Positions 18,308 through 25,454 of a DNA stretch of 64,000 bases are shown piece after piece. The stretch comes from Lachnospiraceae bacterium. Its GTDB lineage: Bacteria; Bacillota; Clostridia; Lachnospirales; Lachnospiraceae. The notes below the pieces were generated by a model. The model was given only the letters and a program-made list of their open reading frames with translations, was not told the DNA's origin and ran no database searches. Position numbers and translations under genes: made by a program. Location: positions 113,866-177,865 of the forward strand of contig JAFYMC010000018.1 of assembly GCA_017556805.1 (NCBI GenBank). The letters are read 5' to 3'. Positions within the stretch are counted from its first letter, which is position 1. Every line of letters starts with the position of its first letter.

Positions 18308-19255
18308 CTACTCGGAAGGTCCTCCGCTTTGCTTAAAAGCGTCGAGCAACCTCCCATAACTCTCCTCCGGTATTTTAACGCACAAATCCCACATCCCCTG
18401 GAATCTGACGTACCCATCCTCGTGAAGTCTAAGATGTATCTTCGTCCCGTCCTTCATGTTAAAATACAGATGATATATCTCAGAATCTACCATATGTTGC
18501 CAACCTTCCTTCGCCGCCACATCCTGACAAAGGAGAAACTCTTCCGCGTCAAGCTTCTCAATAAACTCCCTTATATATGCTTCCTCCTTATCTAACACAT
18601 ACAGCTCTTCCTTACTATAAAACCAGGACTCCCGGCTTTCGAATTGTACTCCGGCAATGTTTCCTGACAGATGCAACCGGTCCTCATACAGTTCTTTCCC
18701 GTATTTTACGGTAATACCGTTGTTGCAAATATACATGCTGATAACACCGTTTGCCTCCTTTGTACAAAGCATAAACTCCGGGGCATACCCCTTCACGGAG
18801 TAAATATCTCCGCCGATGCTGCCCGCAAAGTCCACATAGCCCTCCTCCGGGGTCCACTCGTCAATCATCCCGGTTACGGTGCCCAGATACTCTCCTACAA
18901 TGCCTTCTACTTCGGTGAAATTCTCATAATACACATAGCAACGTCCTTCATAAATAAAGAAGCCTATCATATCAGCCATGGCCGTCGCTTCCTTCGACAG
19001 GGATACCTCCATGGCCGGAATCGTAATCCCTTCTTCCGATACCGTATATTCGGACGGTAGTTCTCCTTTTGTCGGAAGCGTCGATAACTTCCAAATCCCG
19101 CCTGCTACAATCATGCAGAGACAGGCGGCCAAAGCGCCCCACTTTACCCAAGCCGCGGTTTTCGCCTTCTTCGGCGGTTTCCTTCCCGGTGCCGCTTCCG
19201 CAATCAGGTCCTCGTCCATCTTTCCGAGCGCATCCAATAATCTTTCATTCTTCAT
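18308..19255 (-). CDS. Membrane-anchored partner of ECF sigma factor (anti-sigma-like)
   Basis: 315 residues. A cytoplasmic N-terminus of about 33 residues (MKNERLLDALGKMDEDLIAEAA) precedes one membrane helix (about 36-54) and a large outside domain with repeated Tyr-rich strands. The ATG overlaps the sigma factor stop (ATGA). This is the layout of single-pass anti-sigma proteins of clostridial ECF pairs, whose short N-terminal 'LDALGKMDE' segment precedes the helix. The outside domain is not recognised. The anti-sigma role rests on context. Confidence 0.75.
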   Translation of the reverse strand: MKNERLLDALGKMDEDLIAEAAPGRKPPKKAKTAAWVKWGALAACLCMIVAGGIWKLSTLPTKGELPSEYTVSEEGITIPAMEVSLSKEATAMADMIGFFIYEGRCYVYYENFTEVEGIVGEYLGTVTGMIDEWTPEEGYVDFAGSIGGDIYSVKGYAPEFMLCTKEANGVISMYICNNGITVKYGKELYEDRLHLSGNIAGVQFESRESWFYSKEELYVLDKEEAYIREFIEKLDAEEFLLCQDVAAKEGWQHMVDSEIYHLYFNMKDGTKIHLRLHEDGYVRFQGMWDLCVKIPEESYGRLLDAFKQSGGPSE

Positions 19256-19812
19256 AATACGATACCTTCCTTCTCAAGAGTCTTCTTCAATTTATTTCGG
19301 ATACGAAGTAACGTCATTTTCACCTTACCCTCGCTGATTTCAAAATCTTCCGCAATCTCTCCGATTGAACTCAAATACCAGTACCGTCTTACAAACATCA
19401 TTCTTTTTTCCACCGGTAATTCATGGGTAAAGCGGTTTAATACCTCCACCAAGTGTTTTTCTTCTACTGCCTGTTCCGTACTGTTTACCGCCGGAACACA
19501 CTCCTGCAGTTCGTCCAGCACAAGGGGGACCTGACCACAACCACGCTTTTCCCTGACATAATACCTATAGCGGTTCAAGGCGAGGTTGCGCGTGATTTTT
19601 CCAAGAAACGCCGGCAAGTTGACCGGACACTGCGGTGGGATAGCCTCCCAAGTCTTCAAATATGTATCGTTTACGCATTCCTCGCTGTCCTGCTCGTTAT
19701 ATAAAATGTGATACGCAACGGAATAGCAATACTTCCCATATTTGTCCGCAGTTTCCGATATGGCAGTTTCTGAGCGCTCATTGTACAATTGAATTATCTG
19801 CCTATCGTCCAT
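19252..19812 (-). CDS. RNA polymerase ECF-type sigma factor
   Basis: 186 residues. Region 2: 'DKYGKYCYSVAYHILYNEQDSEECVNDTYLKTWEAIPPQCPVNLPAFLGKITRNLALNRYR'. Region 4: 'RMMFVRRYWYLSSIGEIAEDFEISEGKVKMTLLRIRNKLKKTLE' with a clear helix-turn-helix. It is closely related to the factor at 22099-22662 ('SKYGSYCFSVAENILHNTEDSEECVSDTWLAAWNAMPPQRPT'), so the two pairs look like an old local duplication. AGAGAGGAGAAAAAG precedes the ATG. Confidence 0.93.
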   Translation of the reverse strand: MDDRQIIQLYNERSETAISETADKYGKYCYSVAYHILYNEQDSEECVNDTYLKTWEAIPPQCPVNLPAFLGKITRNLALNRYRYYVREKRGCGQVPLVLDELQECVPAVNSTEQAVEEKHLVEVLNRFTHELPVEKRMMFVRRYWYLSSIGEIAEDFEISEGKVKMTLLRIRNKLKKTLEKEGIVL

Positions 19813-20414: not shown

Positions 20415-20885
20415 TCATGCCTCCTTTAATCTTTCTTTCAGCTTCTGTCTTGCCCGGAGCAATCGGTTTTGGACTGCCGTTTCAGAAATTTTCAAAATAT
20501 CTGCGATTTCTCTGACGTTATAATCTTCAAAATAGTACAGATGAACAACCTTCCTATATTTCATCGGAAGTTCTCTCACTGCATAATATAGATTACTTCT
20601 TTCAGGCATCTCAAATGCCGGTTCATGCGACAAATCTTCCATGGAAGCAACCTTACGCTTCCATGTGGTTCTCCACAAGCTCTTACACTCATTCATCGCT
20701 ACTCTAATCAGCCAAAATCTTGCCTGGTCATCATCCGCAAAACATTCTTCTCTTTCCAAAAGTTTCATAAAGGTATTCTGCACAACATCTTCTGCATCCA
20801 TATAATTTTTACAGCCATTTAGCGCTATCCTATATATACAATCCAGATAGAGTGTTACCATTCGCCCATATTCATTTGCGTCCAA
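20415..20885 (-). CDS. RNA polymerase ECF-type sigma factor
   Basis: 156 residues, TTG start with GATAGGAGAATTAG upstream. Region 2 is 'YLDCIYRIALNGCKNYMDAEDVVQNTFMKLLEREECFADDDQARFWLIRVAMNECKSL'. Region 4 is 'LPMKYRKVVHLYYFEDYNVREIADILKISETAVQNRLLRARQKLKERLK', a standard ECF helix-turn-helix. It belongs to a different subgroup from the neighbouring pair at 19252 and 22099. It is followed at once by its presumed membrane partner. Confidence 0.93.
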   Translation of the reverse strand: MDANEYGRMVTLYLDCIYRIALNGCKNYMDAEDVVQNTFMKLLEREECFADDDQARFWLIRVAMNECKSLWRTTWKRKVASMEDLSHEPAFEMPERSNLYYAVRELPMKYRKVVHLYYFEDYNVREIADILKISETAVQNRLLRARQKLKERLKEA

Positions 20886-21101: not shown

Positions 21102-22106
21102 TTATCTCACCGTAATCTCTGTTTTTCCGATTCGTACCGCTTTCACCTCATCCAAATTAATCGGAACACGCCACTGATAGGAACAGTTCAGTGTTGTTCC
21201 GTCACCCATCGGGACACAAGTTCCTCCACTGTCTCCGATGGTTGCCCCATTCTCGAGAACAACCTTTAATTGGCTCACAATTGCCAACGTCCCTTTCTCA
21301 TAATCGTACCGAAAACGAAGCCCGGTATTGGTTAATTCGATATCGGTAAACAACACAGACATTTCTTCCCGCGTATGCAAATTCATAAGCATTACCTCTG
21401 TATCCGGTAACGCTACAGACTCCGGCGGCTGGCTCCGGTCAATCGTAAACGAAAACTCCCAGACACCTTCTGTAACCGTTTTCTGTCTTTCAGACTGTAC
21501 GCCACGCATCAAATCTTCCAATACAAGATGTACCTCTAAAGGTTTCGTATCCAATGCAAACCCTTCTCCCGTTGCGTAGGAAAAGTCCATAAGAAATAAC
21601 GCCGCACCGTCTCCGTCCAAACCGTGAAACTGCACTCCGTAGCTTCCCAAACCACCGACTCCATCCATCGGATCAGGAGAAACCTCAAACTTAACCTCGT
21701 CAAAATTATAATGCTGACGCTTGGAAAACGCCACTCCTTCTACACGCAACAATAAATAGAAGTTATCATCGCCCATCGTTACAGAATCTACCGTAACGGT
21801 AGTCTCATCAACAGTTTTACTCTGACTTATGTCCTGACTCAGATGGTTAAGCAGTGCCTTCTGCCCCTCACTCATCTCCCGCCCGGTCACGAGTCCGAAA
21901 TAATGACCGAACCAGTTTTGTATACTGTCACCATATATAACCGCAACGGCACAGGCTCCCGTCAAAAGCAATGCCAACAAAGCCGCCACCAGCGAAATCG
22001 GAACCCTCCGACGTAGGGAGATATGTTTCGAAGTGGCAATTTCACTACGTTCCAAAACCTCTTCATCCAATCCACTTATACTTTTAAATAAATCTTCTCT
22101 ATTCAC
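21102..22106 (-). CDS. DUF4179-like membrane-anchored partner of ECF sigma factor
   Basis: 334 residues, GTG start with GGAGGGATATTTCA upstream, overlapping the sigma factor end by 8 bp. The N-terminal 35 residues are cytoplasmic ('MNREDLFKSISGLDEEVLERSE'), then a helix at about 36-58, then an outside domain. 'SQSKTVDETTVTVDSVTMGDDNFYLLLRVEG' (about 94-124) matches the DUF4179 pattern of anti-sigma-like proteins, and the rest is beta-rich. It probably holds the sigma factor at the membrane until an envelope signal arrives; the signal is unknown. Confidence 0.78.
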   Translation of the reverse strand: MNREDLFKSISGLDEEVLERSEIATSKHISLRRRVPISLVAALLALLLTGACAVAVIYGDSIQNWFGHYFGLVTGREMSEGQKALLNHLSQDISQSKTVDETTVTVDSVTMGDDNFYLLLRVEGVAFSKRQHYNFDEVKFEVSPDPMDGVGGLGSYGVQFHGLDGDGAALFLMDFSYATGEGFALDTKPLEVHLVLEDLMRGVQSERQKTVTEGVWEFSFTIDRSQPPESVALPDTEVMLMNLHTREEMSVLFTDIELTNTGLRFRYDYEKGTLAIVSQLKVVLENGATIGDSGGTCVPMGDGTTLNCSYQWRVPINLDEVKAVRIGKTEITVR

Positions 22107-22662
22107 TGAAATATCCCTCCTTACAAAGATGTACTTTCAGCATCTTGCGGGTTCTGCTTAAAATAACCATTACGTTATTCTCGGTCATGCTATACCTCTT
22201 TGCAATCACAGATACCGGTTCCGTAAAGAAATAACGGCGTACAAATACATTTCCTTCCCGTTCCGGTAATTCCCGTACAAAGCTCCGGATGCTCTGTTCC
22301 AGTTCTTTAGCCATGTATTCGCTTTCCGTGTCCGACTCGTTTGCTATACATTCCGCCAACTCTTCCAGTACAAGATGTACCTCACCCCCACCACGCTTCT
22401 CTGCGTTCCGGGCATGGAAGCGGTTAAAGGAAAGATTCCGGGTAATTTTCGCAAGAAACATACGAAGTACCGTTGGTCTCTGCGGCGGCATTGCATTCCA
22501 TGCAGCAAGCCAGGTGTCGCTCACACACTCCTCCGAATCCTCTGTATTATGTAAAATATTCTCCGCTACCGAAAAGCAATAGGAACCGTACTTGCTGTCA
22601 GTTTCGTGAATCGCTTCTTCCTTCCGTTTAAAATAAAGCTCAATAATCTGAGAATCCTCCAT
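22099..22662 (-). CDS. RNA polymerase ECF-type sigma factor
   Basis: 187 residues, AAAGGAGGCAGTGC before the ATG. Region 2 'DSKYGSYCFSVAENILHNTEDSEECVSDTWLAAWNAMPP' and region 4 'GNVFVRRYFFTEPVSVIAKRYSMTENNVMVILSRTRKMLKVHL' are intact. It is paralogous to the factor at 19252-19812. Its upstream region carries the periodic array at 22772-23018, which starts about 110 bp before the ATG, so the array could be in its leader or its control region. Confidence 0.93.
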   Translation of the reverse strand: MEDSQIIELYFKRKEEAIHETDSKYGSYCFSVAENILHNTEDSEECVSDTWLAAWNAMPPQRPTVLRMFLAKITRNLSFNRFHARNAEKRGGGEVHLVLEELAECIANESDTESEYMAKELEQSIRSFVRELPEREGNVFVRRYFFTEPVSVIAKRYSMTENNVMVILSRTRKMLKVHLCKEGYFSE

Positions 22663-22771
22663 GCACTGCCTCCTTTCGTTGTTCTAAAGGTCCCTTCACT
22701 CTATAAGACAGGAAATCACAGTGAAACCTTACAAAATTATGTATATTTTACTTCCTTATGTTTCATATTCC

Positions 22772-23018
22772 TCCGACTATTCTTTCATCTTCCTCCCATA
22801 GTCGGGTCCGTTTTCCTCTTCCTTCCCGACTATTTCTCTATTTTTTCAATTTAGTCGGGACTCCTCCTCTCTTTTATCCCGACTCCTCATCCCTTTTTCT
22901 CTTTTAGTCGGGGCGTCCTCTCAAATTTCACCCGACTGCTTCTTCCTTTTCAACATCTAGTCGGGTTATTCTCCTACAAATCACCCGACCATATTTCAAT
23001 GTCTCCATTTTAGTCGGG
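22772..23018. repeat. 53-bp-period array of alternately inverted TAGTCGGG / CCCGACT sites
   Basis: TAGTCGGG occurs at 22799, 22852, 22905, 22958 and 23011, exactly 53 bp apart. The inverted site (C)CCGACT occurs at 22772 (TCCGACT), 22825, 22878, 22931 and 22984 (CCCGACC), again exactly 53 bp apart. Spacers alternate strictly between 20 and 18 nt. The nine spacers share no sequence but are about 80% pyrimidine on the plus strand, with only five G in 174 nt. On the minus strand each unit reads CCCGACTA-N20-AGTCGGG-N18, so a transcript could form five 7- to 8-bp hairpins with purine-rich loops. It lies between the metG terminator and the sigma factor at 22662. Confidence 0.95.
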
Positions 23019-23111
23019 ATTCCATACCGCAAAAGCCATAAAAAAGTCATATTCTTCTCTCACTTAACTTAACAGTCCTACAAAACAGGCAATATCCACC
23101 ATTTCTACGCC

Positions 23112-23140
23112 AAAAACCGCCTCCGGTTTCCCGGAAGCGG
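23112..23140 (-). terminator. Terminator of metG
   Basis: CCGCCTCCGG / CCGGAAGCGG arms with one mismatch and a 4-nt loop; on the minus strand TTTTTGG follows. It lies 23 bp beyond the metG stop and separates it from the periodic array. Confidence 0.92.
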
Positions 23141-23162
23141 CCTAAATTCATTCCTATTTCTC

Positions 23163-25244
23163 TTACTTCTCCGCAAGCTCTGCCAACTGGCTCTCATGAC
23201 GAAGGAAGAAGTCGAACCGCGGCGGTAAGAACTTGGTCTCACCGGTCGGATTTGCCAGTACATCCTTCATGTCTGCAAATGCGTAGTTCCAGTCGTATAC
23301 CTTTTCGGACAAACCTACATACTCACGTACCGTCTCGCAACCGGTCGGTGCAATCGGGTGAAGGAGTAACAATGCAGTCTTGATACCGTAGAAGCAGTCT
23401 GTAAGAAGCTGGTCGCGAAGTGCTTCGCCGCCTTCTTCCTCTGCCTTCTTAATGTTGTTTGCATAATGCTTGTTCAGCAAACGGATATAATCATCCAACA
23501 CATAGGTAATGCGGTGGAAATCATGGTTGTACATATGACGCTCGTACTCAAGGATAGCTTCTTCGGAAGCCGCCTTAATCTTCTCATCCACAACGCCCAT
23601 CGGAATCACGGAATTGTTGTACTTCTGTACCGTATACAGACAGGAACGTACGATACGGTTGAATACGTTGGTCAGAAGATTACCTTCCTTTAATACCGGG
23701 TCCACACCCTCACGCTCATTCTCCGGCAGATAAATCTGCGGCTTGAAGCTGGAGCTCTTGGTGGAAAGACCAAGGCTTAAGAAGTGCATACGAAGCTGCT
23801 CCGGCGTATAGAACGCCAACAAATCCTTTGCCATCGGCGGCTTGATTTCGGAGCTGGAGCTTGCCTTCTTTTCCATGAACAGAATATGGCGGTTTGCAAT
23901 AATCTGCGGAAGCTTCTTATAGTCAATTTTCACCGGCTTGCCTGCCTCTGCGTCTGCTGCCGCAAACATAGCCATTTCGGCAATACCGTAGAAATAAATA
24001 TTGTCTTCACCGATAAACTGGTACACCTGGGAATCTTCACCCATCCACCATTCCTTCCATTCGGACGGGTTCTTGCCGCGCTCCTCAAGGCATGTCTTCG
24101 TAAAGGAAATCGGTGCCCATAAAGACTCCGGCCATACCCAGAAGGTCAAATCCTTATTACCCTCGCACTCCGGCACCGGCACACCCCATTCGATGTTACC
24201 GGACAAACGGAACGGAACCAAGGTCTTACCGGTACGGCAATTGATATTACGCTCCGCCAATGCCGCTCTCGCCTTGTCACGATCATCCAATGATGCGAAT
24301 ACAAAAGTGACCGACGGCTTCTTTTCCTCGGCAATCACTTCATGTGCCGGGAAAGCCGCAGTCAGCTCCGCAAGACCCGCTTCGTAAGCTGCATCGAACA
24401 CATCCTTATCCGGTGCTCCCTCGCCCGTGTAGGTCTTCGGGTTTACCGCAATGAGCTTCTTCTGCACGTAGATAACCGGCTTCTTTAAAAACTCTTCGAT
24501 GGTATTTAAAATATACTTACGAGTATTGGTATTCGCACGTACCTCGTTGATATACTCCTGCATTTCGTCGGTAAAGTTCTCCAAGGAGAAGTACCAGTTC
24601 TTTACCTCGATAATCTCCGGGGTCTTACCGGACAGCATGCTCTTCGGCTCGATTAACTCCGACGGCATATACTGATGTCCCAGGTCACACTCGTCCGCAT
24701 AACCCTTTTCGGAACAACAGCCCTCAATCGGACACTTACCTACCACCTGTCTGCCGTTTAAGAGTACCTTAAACTCCGGGTCGTAGAACTGCGGGGTGGA
24801 CATCATCTTTAACTGTCCTCTTTCGTACAGAGCCTCGAACAGCTCCTTAGAAGACTCTACATGATGCTCGGCACCGCGATATAATGCGGATGCACCGTAG
24901 TAATCCGGATAAATCTCATAGGCATGTAAGGTGTCCTTCTGAATCTTGTGATTCTTTTCCACGTAATCATGAATGGTCATGTCTGCCGGAATCACACCGC
25001 TCTCCTGCTGCTTACGGAAGCCCTCCAAAATCGGAGAACCGTAGCAGTCGGTACCGGATACGAAAATAACATTTTCTGCGCCGATACGGTCACGCATAAA
25101 ACGCGCGAAAGTATCTGCGTGTACAAATAAGCCACCCACATGACCGAAATGCAGCTCCTTGTTGCCGTACGGCATACCGGAGGTAATCACTGCTTTCTTC
25201 GGAAACACCGGACGTCCTTCCGGCTTTCTGAACTCTTTTCCCAT
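23163..25244 (-). CDS. metG: Methionyl-tRNA synthetase, divergent form lacking KMSKS
   Basis: 693 residues from MGKEFRKPEGRP, ATG preceded by AAAGGCGGAACT. Class I signature 'SGMPYGNKELHFGHVGG' (HIGH as HFGH) is near residue 25. A Cys-rich insert ('CPIEGCCSEKGYADECDLGH') marks the zinc region, followed by an additional segment of about 100 residues (about 240-345). 'IEWGVPVPECEGNKDLTFWVWPESLWAP' and 'EDNIYFYGIAEMAMF' are MetRS-like. Where KMSKS is expected, the sequence reads 'FMEKKASSSSEIKPPMAKDLL', so the catalytic second Lys is Ser. The anticodon-binding helical domain follows, and there is no C-terminal dimerisation domain. It is probably a functional lineage variant or a MetRS-like paralogue. 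Confidence 0.82.
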   Translation of the reverse strand: MGKEFRKPEGRPVFPKKAVITSGMPYGNKELHFGHVGGLFVHADTFARFMRDRIGAENVIFVSGTDCYGSPILEGFRKQQESGVIPADMTIHDYVEKNHKIQKDTLHAYEIYPDYYGASALYRGAEHHVESSKELFEALYERGQLKMMSTPQFYDPEFKVLLNGRQVVGKCPIEGCCSEKGYADECDLGHQYMPSELIEPKSMLSGKTPEIIEVKNWYFSLENFTDEMQEYINEVRANTNTRKYILNTIEEFLKKPVIYVQKKLIAVNPKTYTGEGAPDKDVFDAAYEAGLAELTAAFPAHEVIAEEKKPSVTFVFASLDDRDKARAALAERNINCRTGKTLVPFRLSGNIEWGVPVPECEGNKDLTFWVWPESLWAPISFTKTCLEERGKNPSEWKEWWMGEDSQVYQFIGEDNIYFYGIAEMAMFAAADAEAGKPVKIDYKKLPQIIANRHILFMEKKASSSSEIKPPMAKDLLAFYTPEQLRMHFLSLGLSTKSSSFKPQIYLPENEREGVDPVLKEGNLLTNVFNRIVRSCLYTVQKYNNSVIPMGVVDEKIKAASEEAILEYERHMYNHDFHRITYVLDDYIRLLNKHYANNIKKAEEEGGEALRDQLLTDCFYGIKTALLLLHPIAPTGCETVREYVGLSEKVYDWNYAFADMKDVLANPTGETKFLPPRFDFFLRHESQLAELAEK

Positions 25245-25265
25245 AGTTCCGCCTTTCTTCCTACC

Positions 25266-25454
25266 GCACTTCCTTGTGAAGTTTTCTAATTGCGTTGCGT
25301 TAATGAAAAATTCTACGGAAACCCGCTCTCGCTCATGCACCGACGTAGCAGGCACTAAGCTCGAAAGGACCTCGCTAAGTGCTGACGTCGGCTTATGGTT
25401 TCCTTAAGATTTTTTCATTTCCGCACCGCAAAGATTGCTTCCGAAAGGAAGTGC
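25266..25454. repeat. 189-bp imperfect palindrome between leuS and metG
   Basis: The two halves are related as inverted arms over about 85-95 bp. Matching blocks, from outside in: GCACTTCCTT, then TTGCG-TGCG, AATGAAAAA-TCT, GGAAACC, CCGACGT, GCA, CACT-AGC. The centre is near 25365. The element fills most of the 322-bp gap upstream of metG. It could fold into one very long hairpin in the leader, or be a miniature inverted-repeat transposable element. No T-box core sequence is present. Confidence 0.8.

Follow-up and report, generated by a model that had tools for sequence, protein, structure and literature searches.

Among described systems, the closest counterparts of the element considered here pair an enzyme gene with short DNA repeats. 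In RAYT (TnpA-REP) systems, a single-copy enzyme has adjoining alternating repeats and dispersed extragenic copies of them, enzyme and repeats co-evolve, and copy number tracks the enzyme (PMC2817692, PMC3116915). REP sequences are described as imperfect palindromes of 20-40 bp, many of them tagged GTAG or CGTC (PMC3733652), and the inter-REP segments of Stenotrophomonas BIMEs are substantially variable in length (PMC2817692). TIGR-Tas joins a Nop domain, RuvC or HNH nucleases and processed guides to repeats of two distinct kinds, 8-12 nt long, with spacers of 9 nt (up to 12) (PMC12045711). The element in question is an array of short, alternately inverted sites within 64,000 nucleotides of contig JAFYMC010000018.1 from a Lachnospiraceae bacterium (genome G000; G-numbers denote genomes and L-numbers loci that were compared). 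This whole stretch is called the window. The array is read here, with a probability of roughly 0.6, as a dispersed copy of a helically phased half-site array for a family of proteins with a PD-(D/E)XK nuclease fold.

Such arrays resemble RAYT/REP-BIME/REPIN elements in being alternating, clustered and extragenic, and in that their number tracks a cognate enzyme, the exceptions being seven genomes without a close orthologue. They differ in the enzyme, which has a PD-(D/E)XK fold whereas RAYT is a Y1 HUH transposase. The half-site, unlike a REP, is 6-9 bp long and not self-complementary, and only the pair forms an inverted repeat; the spacing, unlike that of BIMEs, is fixed to helical turns. TIGR-Tas shares with the arrays short repeats and variable spacers beside a nuclease gene, but the arrays consist of one motif alternately inverted, their nuclease has the PD-(D/E)XK fold, and their spacers are 18-20 bp in the clade with GTNGG half-sites and longer in others. 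In contrast to CRISPR, with its direct repeats of 25-36 nt, acquired spacers and cas genes, the sites are 8 bp and inverted, and the spacers diverge by descent, no search aimed at cas genes having been made. The C-terminal half of the nuclease has a fold like that of TnsA of Tn7, DrdV, Bax1 and Vsr. TnsA acts within the transposon together with TnsB and TnsC.

An assignment to RAYT/REP proper was rejected, as array-bearing relatives mostly lack a Y1 transposase of the G000 type. The G000 protein, an IS200-like Y1 protein of 155 aa encoded in single copy (L171 1471-1938; C29:212223-212570), lies about 11 kb from the array beside comEC described below. A Y1 profile was run on G000. With the protein itself as query, no match (E up to 0.001) was obtained in the genus mates searched, and this single-protein query found nothing in 14 of the 18 array genomes and weak matches in the others save G000. 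No description of such arrays was found in the open-licence PubMed Central (PMC) literature, which is weak evidence of absence and agrees with an earlier note on this DNA, which knew of no described class that fits. On present evidence the nuclease-plus-array system, a large family in gut bacteria, appears to be undescribed, with RAYT/BIME as its functional analogue.

The window array and other arrays of its motif

Ten 8-bp sites lie within 247 bp at 22772..23018, and a direct position check reproduced the sites and the 53-bp period of the earlier note. With TAGTCGGG written as > and its inverse CCCGACTA as <, starts of sites in the same orientation are exactly 53 bp apart, and the steps are 26 from > to < and 27 from < to >. 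The spacers alternate between 19 and 18 nt with 8-bp sites, or between 20 and 18 nt with 7-bp sites. The array can be laid out as five units:

22772..22806, minus strand: unit with half-sites TCCGACTA / TAGTCGGG and a 19-bp centre
22825..22859, minus strand: unit with half-sites CCCGACTA / TAGTCGGG and a 19-bp centre holding a T-tract (an A-tract on the minus strand)
22878..22912, minus strand: unit with half-sites CCCGACTC / TAGTCGGG and a T-tract at the centre
22931..22965, minus strand: unit with half-sites CCCGACTG / TAGTCGGG and a T-tract at the centre
22984..23018, minus strand: unit with half-sites CCCGACCA / TAGTCGGG and a 19-bp centre

Taken over the whole window, the motif shows no enrichment (30 matches to TAGTCGGG with at most one mismatch, against 37.9 expected from shuffles). 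Ten of these 30 matches fall inside the 247 bp, where 0.12 would be expected (binomial tail 2e-17). The spacers are 82.6% pyrimidine. Their G content, first counted as five in 174 nt, is 4 in 167 nt with 8-bp site borders, and GGA does occur on the minus strand of eight of the nine. They had been called unlike one another. This stands for their overall divergence, but the < to > spacers share a central A/T-tract, present in three of the five in the window and recurrent over many arrays.

G000 carries three arrays of this motif in three intergenic places (the window and contigs C29 and C37), one of them beside a nuclease gene. Several dispersed arrays per chromosome and the nuclease neighbour do not support the partition site (parS) or iteron suggested earlier, for which one array per replicon beside a replication or ParB gene would be expected. 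A scan of 15 proteins, mostly array neighbours, found no replication or ParB gene, no dedicated ParB search having been made. A motif scan of a public bacterial genome set returned 110 stretches. Regular arrays came from Lachnospiraceae, Eubacterium and Clostridiales records, and stretches outside Lachnospiraceae/Clostridia records mostly lacked a chain of at least four sites; L052, L056 and L080 had such chains, but their steps are irregular and they were left out of the array count. A scan of 397 genomes gave matches in five, namely G000, G117, G252, G177 (a short array) and G235 (an isolated match). Viral contigs gave 18 matches to the two-site pattern, all single pairs among the matches listed, and viral carriage of arrays was rejected on this ground.

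The parsed GTNGG arrays number 30, with 4 to 27 sites each; three are from G000 and the rest from 16 other genomes. In their half-sites, position 3 is G in 349 of 361, position 4 T in 358, position 6 G in 349 and position 7 G in 359, while positions 1, 2, 5 and 8 are looser. The gaps are mostly 18 bp from > to < and 19 or 20 bp from < to >. In the < to > spacers, read on the purine-rich strand, A occupies positions 8-11 of 19 in 72, 91, 94 and 85% (124 spacers from 23 arrays with strong strand bias), and the > to < spacers of GTNGG arrays have no central A-tract. Among the 26 arrays whose ends lie inside a contig, 15 start with < and finish with >, one does the reverse, and 10 are mixed. Because of the central A-tract and these ends, the unit would most simply be CCCGACTA-N8-AAA-N8-TAGTCGGG.

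Arrays also appear to have been copied and extended. Four loci of SIG328 (G252; L013, L021, L152 and L166) hold copies of one array that are 78-82% identical, and three of the four include in the repeated segment an upstream terminator-like hairpin with a T-run; the copied unit can therefore exceed the array. Near-identical tandem units occur in several arrays, for example in L025, L232 and L259.

The nuclease family and its arrays

The array on contig C29 of G000 lies between comEC and the gene of a 280-aa protein, directly upstream of the latter; Pfam identified comEC in G452 and, by its metallo-beta-lactamase part only, in G000. This protein, with an array of the same motif directly upstream of its gene, is most probably the one that recognises the window array. 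Its C-terminal half matches PD-(D/E)XK nuclease folds, including TnsA, DrdV, Bax1 and Vsr. Foldseek against the PDB gave no match at E below 0.001, the best being 1e-3 to 1e-2, and sequence identity to TnsA is about 10%. NCBIfam and Pfam offered no convincing name. In the PADLOC library, PDC-S68 matches all 25 family members that make up the A1 profile, through their C-terminal nuclease domain; its models are about 1200 residues long, carry no description in the library, and match over the last 130 or so residues only. Two other PADLOC candidate families, PDC-S69 and HEAT_CxxC_PD-DEXK, share this domain. The residues E175, D206, E221 and K238, invariant in the 25 members, form a putative active site for DNA cleavage.

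Orthologues in other genera are 57-70% identical. The array is kept in the comEC-nuclease gap of G006, G117, G450, G451, G452, G453 (short), G455 and G252, nine genomes with G000. The half-sites in this gap are AAGTTGGT / ACCAATGA in G006 and CAGTCGGG / CCCGCCTG in G455, and in G459 an array of TAGTTGGG / CCCAACTA lies downstream of the nuclease gene. Among 387 family genomes, a close orthologue (E up to 1e-60) was found in four, G000, G117, G252 and G273, and all four have an array; the array of G273 had escaped the motif scan and came to light through the orthologue. Conversely, 10 of the 17 genomes with parsed GTNGG arrays have the comEC-side orthologue (at least 57% identity), that of G449 being a 93-residue piece at a contig edge.

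Paralogues about 35-42% identical to the comEC-side nuclease adjoin alternating arrays of other half-sites. These include TACCATGA / TCATGGTA arrays with a period of 62-63 bp (G006, G007 and G000), TACCAT / ATGGTA (G004 and G009), GATGC / GCATC (G013), GATGTA (G461), ACGTAA at 73 bp (G459) and others. In G000 a second family nuclease has an in-frame stop and a 14-site, 63-bp TACCATGA array alongside (L255; C19:84723-85501). In G008 a family gene accompanies a 72-bp tandem array of the 11-bp inverted repeat CCGTGGGCCTG (L247 673-1032), whose period identity of up to 98% suggests a recent expansion. The A1 profile places the family in 113 of 387 family genomes and 103 of 334 genera. It may also occur on phage-like contigs, as a 4.2-kb phage record from human faeces (MT839528.1) matched the nuclease in tblastn (37% over 206 aa, 2e-29).

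Arrays were scored with a motif-free chain finder, a stricter unit counter having missed visible arrays. A score of at least 5 was reached by 37 of 56 nuclease loci versus three of 83 mixed-phylum control loci, each chosen for one TAGTCGGG pair. Among 25 nuclease loci found by the profile only, which are the best-scoring places of that search and no random draw, 16 scored at least 5 and 20 at least 4, against five of the 83 controls at the latter threshold. Nineteen of these 20 arrays lie upstream of the nuclease. Same-family control loci, chosen for Y1 or metG, scored at least 4 in two of 37. A periodicity statistic alone was unspecific (at least 0.56 in four of 83 controls and 19 of 31 nuclease loci).

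The array periods fall on whole helical turns (53, 63, 73 and 86 bp). At the 37 loci scoring at least 5 they are 53-54 bp (21), 62-64 bp (11), 72-75 bp (4) and 86 bp (1), with a resultant of 0.92 at 10.5 bp. Reduced to one hand-picked value per clade (22 values), the resultant is 0.89, which none of 20000 uniform draws reached, and the 11 clade values above 56 bp alone give 0.81 (p 3e-4). L286 and L293, both of the GCATCA clade, share an arm distance of 29 bp but not the inter-unit gap, which is 33 bp in one and 44 bp in the other, a difference of about one turn. These periods point to a role at the DNA level. The ordered protein array proposed in the earlier note is a better reading than an RNA because periods sit on whole helical turns, as expected if proteins are stacked along one side of the helix.

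Motif and nuclease co-vary. In a nuclease tree of 51 rows, the GTNGG, TACCAT, GCATCA and TACGGT motifs each correspond to one clade (bootstrap 97-100), and the TACGGT clade spans four genera. The more alike two proteins are, the more alike their motifs tend to be (Mantel r 0.62, n = 34, 0 of 5000 permutations). A host that carries two family genes also has two motifs, although the half-site at L250 (G455) is indistinct, and the motif therefore tracks the enzyme and not the host. It is very probable that the arrays are binding sites of the nuclease family.

Dispersal, constraint and competing explanations

In two motif systems, dispersal is in step with the nuclease. Within the genus of the window, TACCATGA pairs number 42 in G007 and 40 in G006, where the cognate gene is intact, and 8 in G000, whose copy is interrupted by a stop. 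There are two in G004, which has a related nuclease with ATGGTA sites, one in G003, and none in five other members, including G009, whose nuclease is paired with ATGGTA. In the 387 family genomes, three or more TACGGTT pairs occur only in G399 (31), G037 (19), G030 (11), G402 (11) and G360 (3); 40 others have one or two, and a reversed-pattern control never exceeded two. All five rich genomes carry a family nuclease, four of them of the TACGGT clade, that of G402 not being placed. An A4/T4 tract marks the unit centre in 10 of 12 cases in the TACGGT clade versus none of eight single chance pairs; it is not marked in the TACCATGA arrays (28 of 83). The chances that the nuclease itself drives the dispersal appear about even.

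Dispersed copies are conserved in a particular way. Five of the eight dispersed arrays of G007 that were compared have an orthologous array in G006, one of them (L320/L327) reduced to two sites there. In the remaining four pairs, identity over aligned bases is 362 of 380 (95%) for half-sites, 636 of 1101 (58%) for spacers and 324 of 608 for neighbouring intergenic DNA. Two pairs with differing unit number account for most of the gapped cells (44 in sites, 125 in spacers); L315/L321 and L317/L322 each show a single gapped base in the spacers. Most steps differ by no more than 1 bp. The GTNGG pair L036/L040 has 79 of 103 half-site bases and 127 of 250 spacer bases identical, with flanking genes 80-85% identical. 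Individual dispersed copies are maintained, with spacing kept and spacer sequence lost. The earlier note had argued from the window array that position is selected; the orthologous loci uphold this, for the spacers of relatives differ while their spacing does not.

A separate, conserved 34-bp inverted repeat like TACGGTTACTGTAATAAATATATCACTAACCGTA (L306 and L312; G036, G171, G184, G302 and G374) is single in seven other genomes and looks like a different small element.

Several observations weigh against a dispersed array for the nuclease family. Within 1.5 kb on either side of L231, the G007 orthologue of the comEC-side nuclease, there is no array; the TACGGT-clade nuclease of G399 has none within the surrounding 3.4 kb, and a sister clade on the nuclease tree (L248, L256-L258) has none. 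Seven of the 17 array genomes (G003, G454, G456, G457, G458, G460 and G461, all drafts) gave no nuclease match or only distant or partial ones, and in G177 a short GTNGG array goes with no more than a distant member of the family. Control locus L195 (119-489; G461) is a clear 53-bp CCACGC / GCGTGG array whose units are nearly identical; its 3.3 kb contain no family gene, and the genome has at least seven family matches. The phasing resultant remains at 0.91-0.92 for helix values from 10 to 10.7, and the periods include related arrays besides the clade values picked by hand. The strong constraint at dispersed loci exceeds what purely selfish spread predicts. The nuclease is not the sole cause of arrays, and it is not required in every genome.

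The array genomes without a detected close nuclease, the nucleases of G007 and G399 without an adjoining array and the constraint on arrays at fixed loci would also fit a different host DNA-binding or nucleoid protein, beside whose sites the nuclease gene hitchhikes or inserts. This is unlikely, since both motif and period go with position in the nuclease tree, and different nucleases of one host have different motifs beside them. Somewhat less probable is a DNA sponge, in which the arrays mainly titrate an otherwise harmful nuclease and loss of an array frees it (DNA addiction or an antitoxin). It would suit an array adjoining the nuclease gene, half-site constraint and the restriction of many dispersed pairs, in two motif systems, to genomes with a family nuclease. 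Redundant sites should, however, decay singly, which the good preservation of the orthologous arrays compared does not bear out, and array genomes without a detected close nuclease exist.

An array of RNA hairpins is distinctly improbable. A minus-strand transcript with purine-rich loops would bind or titrate an RNA-binding protein, CsrA or the ribosome in the earlier proposal, or stabilise an mRNA. For both strands, RNA of the window array folds much better than its shuffles do (z -5.7 and -7.7), though any inverted sites would give this. In 17 of 19 GTNGG arrays with co-directional neighbours, the purine-rich spacer strand has the sense of those genes; between convergent genes, four of six arrays are near 50% purine. 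In TACCATGA arrays with co-directional neighbours the bias is absent (5 of 10). Within arrays, > covaries weakly with the following < (p 0.05 and 0.03) but not in the other pairing (p 0.52 and 0.66). The half-sites show no clear covariation, one-sided changes standing at 185 against 38 matched ones, and in arrays of G117, G450, G252 and G455 a single stem mismatch recurs through most of the units. Together with the helical-turn periods, this disfavours the RNA reading. Rfam covariance models gave no match in window positions 22000-23700 at E up to 1.

Guide RNAs are more doubtful still. Short repeats, spacers of fixed length and a nuclease neighbour do recall the guides of TIGR-Tas or CRISPR; at orthologous loci, however, the spacers drift by point changes with steps kept, many arrays hold near copies of one spacer, the spacers are biased to purine and have an A-tract at the centre in two clades, and arrays stand at many loci without the nuclease. 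TIGR spacers measure 9-12 nt (PMC12045711). A neutral satellite, grown by tandem duplication from a chance inverted repeat with no bound protein, would explain the near-identical units of L025, L232 and L259. It is the least probable of these readings, contradicted by the constraint on half-sites and by steps that persist although spacers have diverged; the helical-turn periods and the co-variation of motif with nuclease also speak against it.

For the phased half-site array we infer binding, dimerisation, cutting and mobilisation by the nuclease, spread driven by it and any benefit to the host. The unit would consist of two inverted half-sites (CCCGACTA ... TAGTCGGG) with the A-tract at the dyad. 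A dimer would sit on both half-sites, with the nuclease domains near the A-tract. Units whole turns apart would place the proteins on one face of the DNA with dimers in register, giving an ordered nucleoprotein array, and each nuclease clade would have its own half-site and period. Arrays may lengthen by tandem duplication. Breaks made or provoked by the nuclease, followed by repair, could create copies at other intergenic sites, as proposed for RAYT and REP/BIME. Candidate host benefits are a nucleoid or transcription boundary, a store of nuclease (defence) or a DNA sponge. In its widest form, to which we give slightly less than even odds, this amounts to a second, independently evolved REP/BIME-like economy, in which nucleases with co-evolving half-sites build, disperse and occupy phased arrays across Lachnospiraceae, kept for a host benefit. 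If true, it would constitute a widespread nuclease-plus-site-array system for which no homologous described counterpart was found, and would supply many natural protein-site pairs of differing specificity on one scaffold. It would also offer a clean case for asking whether dispersed extragenic repeats are selfish or useful, as cross-species comparison is possible for half-sites, spacing and enzyme separately.

The metG locus

Pfam matches agree with the placement of the window array between metG and an ECF sigma gene in the earlier note. The features around it are:

22099..22662, minus strand: ECF-type sigma factor gene downstream of the array (Sigma70_r2 PF04542, Sigma70_r4_2 PF08281)
22741..23110, no strand: extra segment of about 370 bp bearing the array, borders set by eye to within about 10 bp
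23163..25355, minus strand: metG (methionyl-tRNA synthetase, PF09334), reading towards the array

The orthologous metG-sigma interval is array-free in the genus mates G003, G004 and G007, which lack the roughly 370 bp of G000. In G006 and G002 other genes follow metG, and there is no array there. The end of metG was not located by script in G009, G001 and G008, and G005 gave no metG match. The refuting test set by the earlier note came out in favour of its reading, the spacers of relatives being different and the spacing preserved; the array is missing from the metG locus of the three genus mates, but arrays are shared at other loci. Gain of the array at metG in G000 would be the simplest reading, with loss in the others as the less simple alternative.

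The window holds three sigma-like genes on the minus strand (19252-19812, 20415-20885 and 22099-22662), of which the last, with its partner, was the pair run against Pfam. Each is followed by a gene whose product appears by eye to be membrane-anchored, and one of these products has DUF4179.
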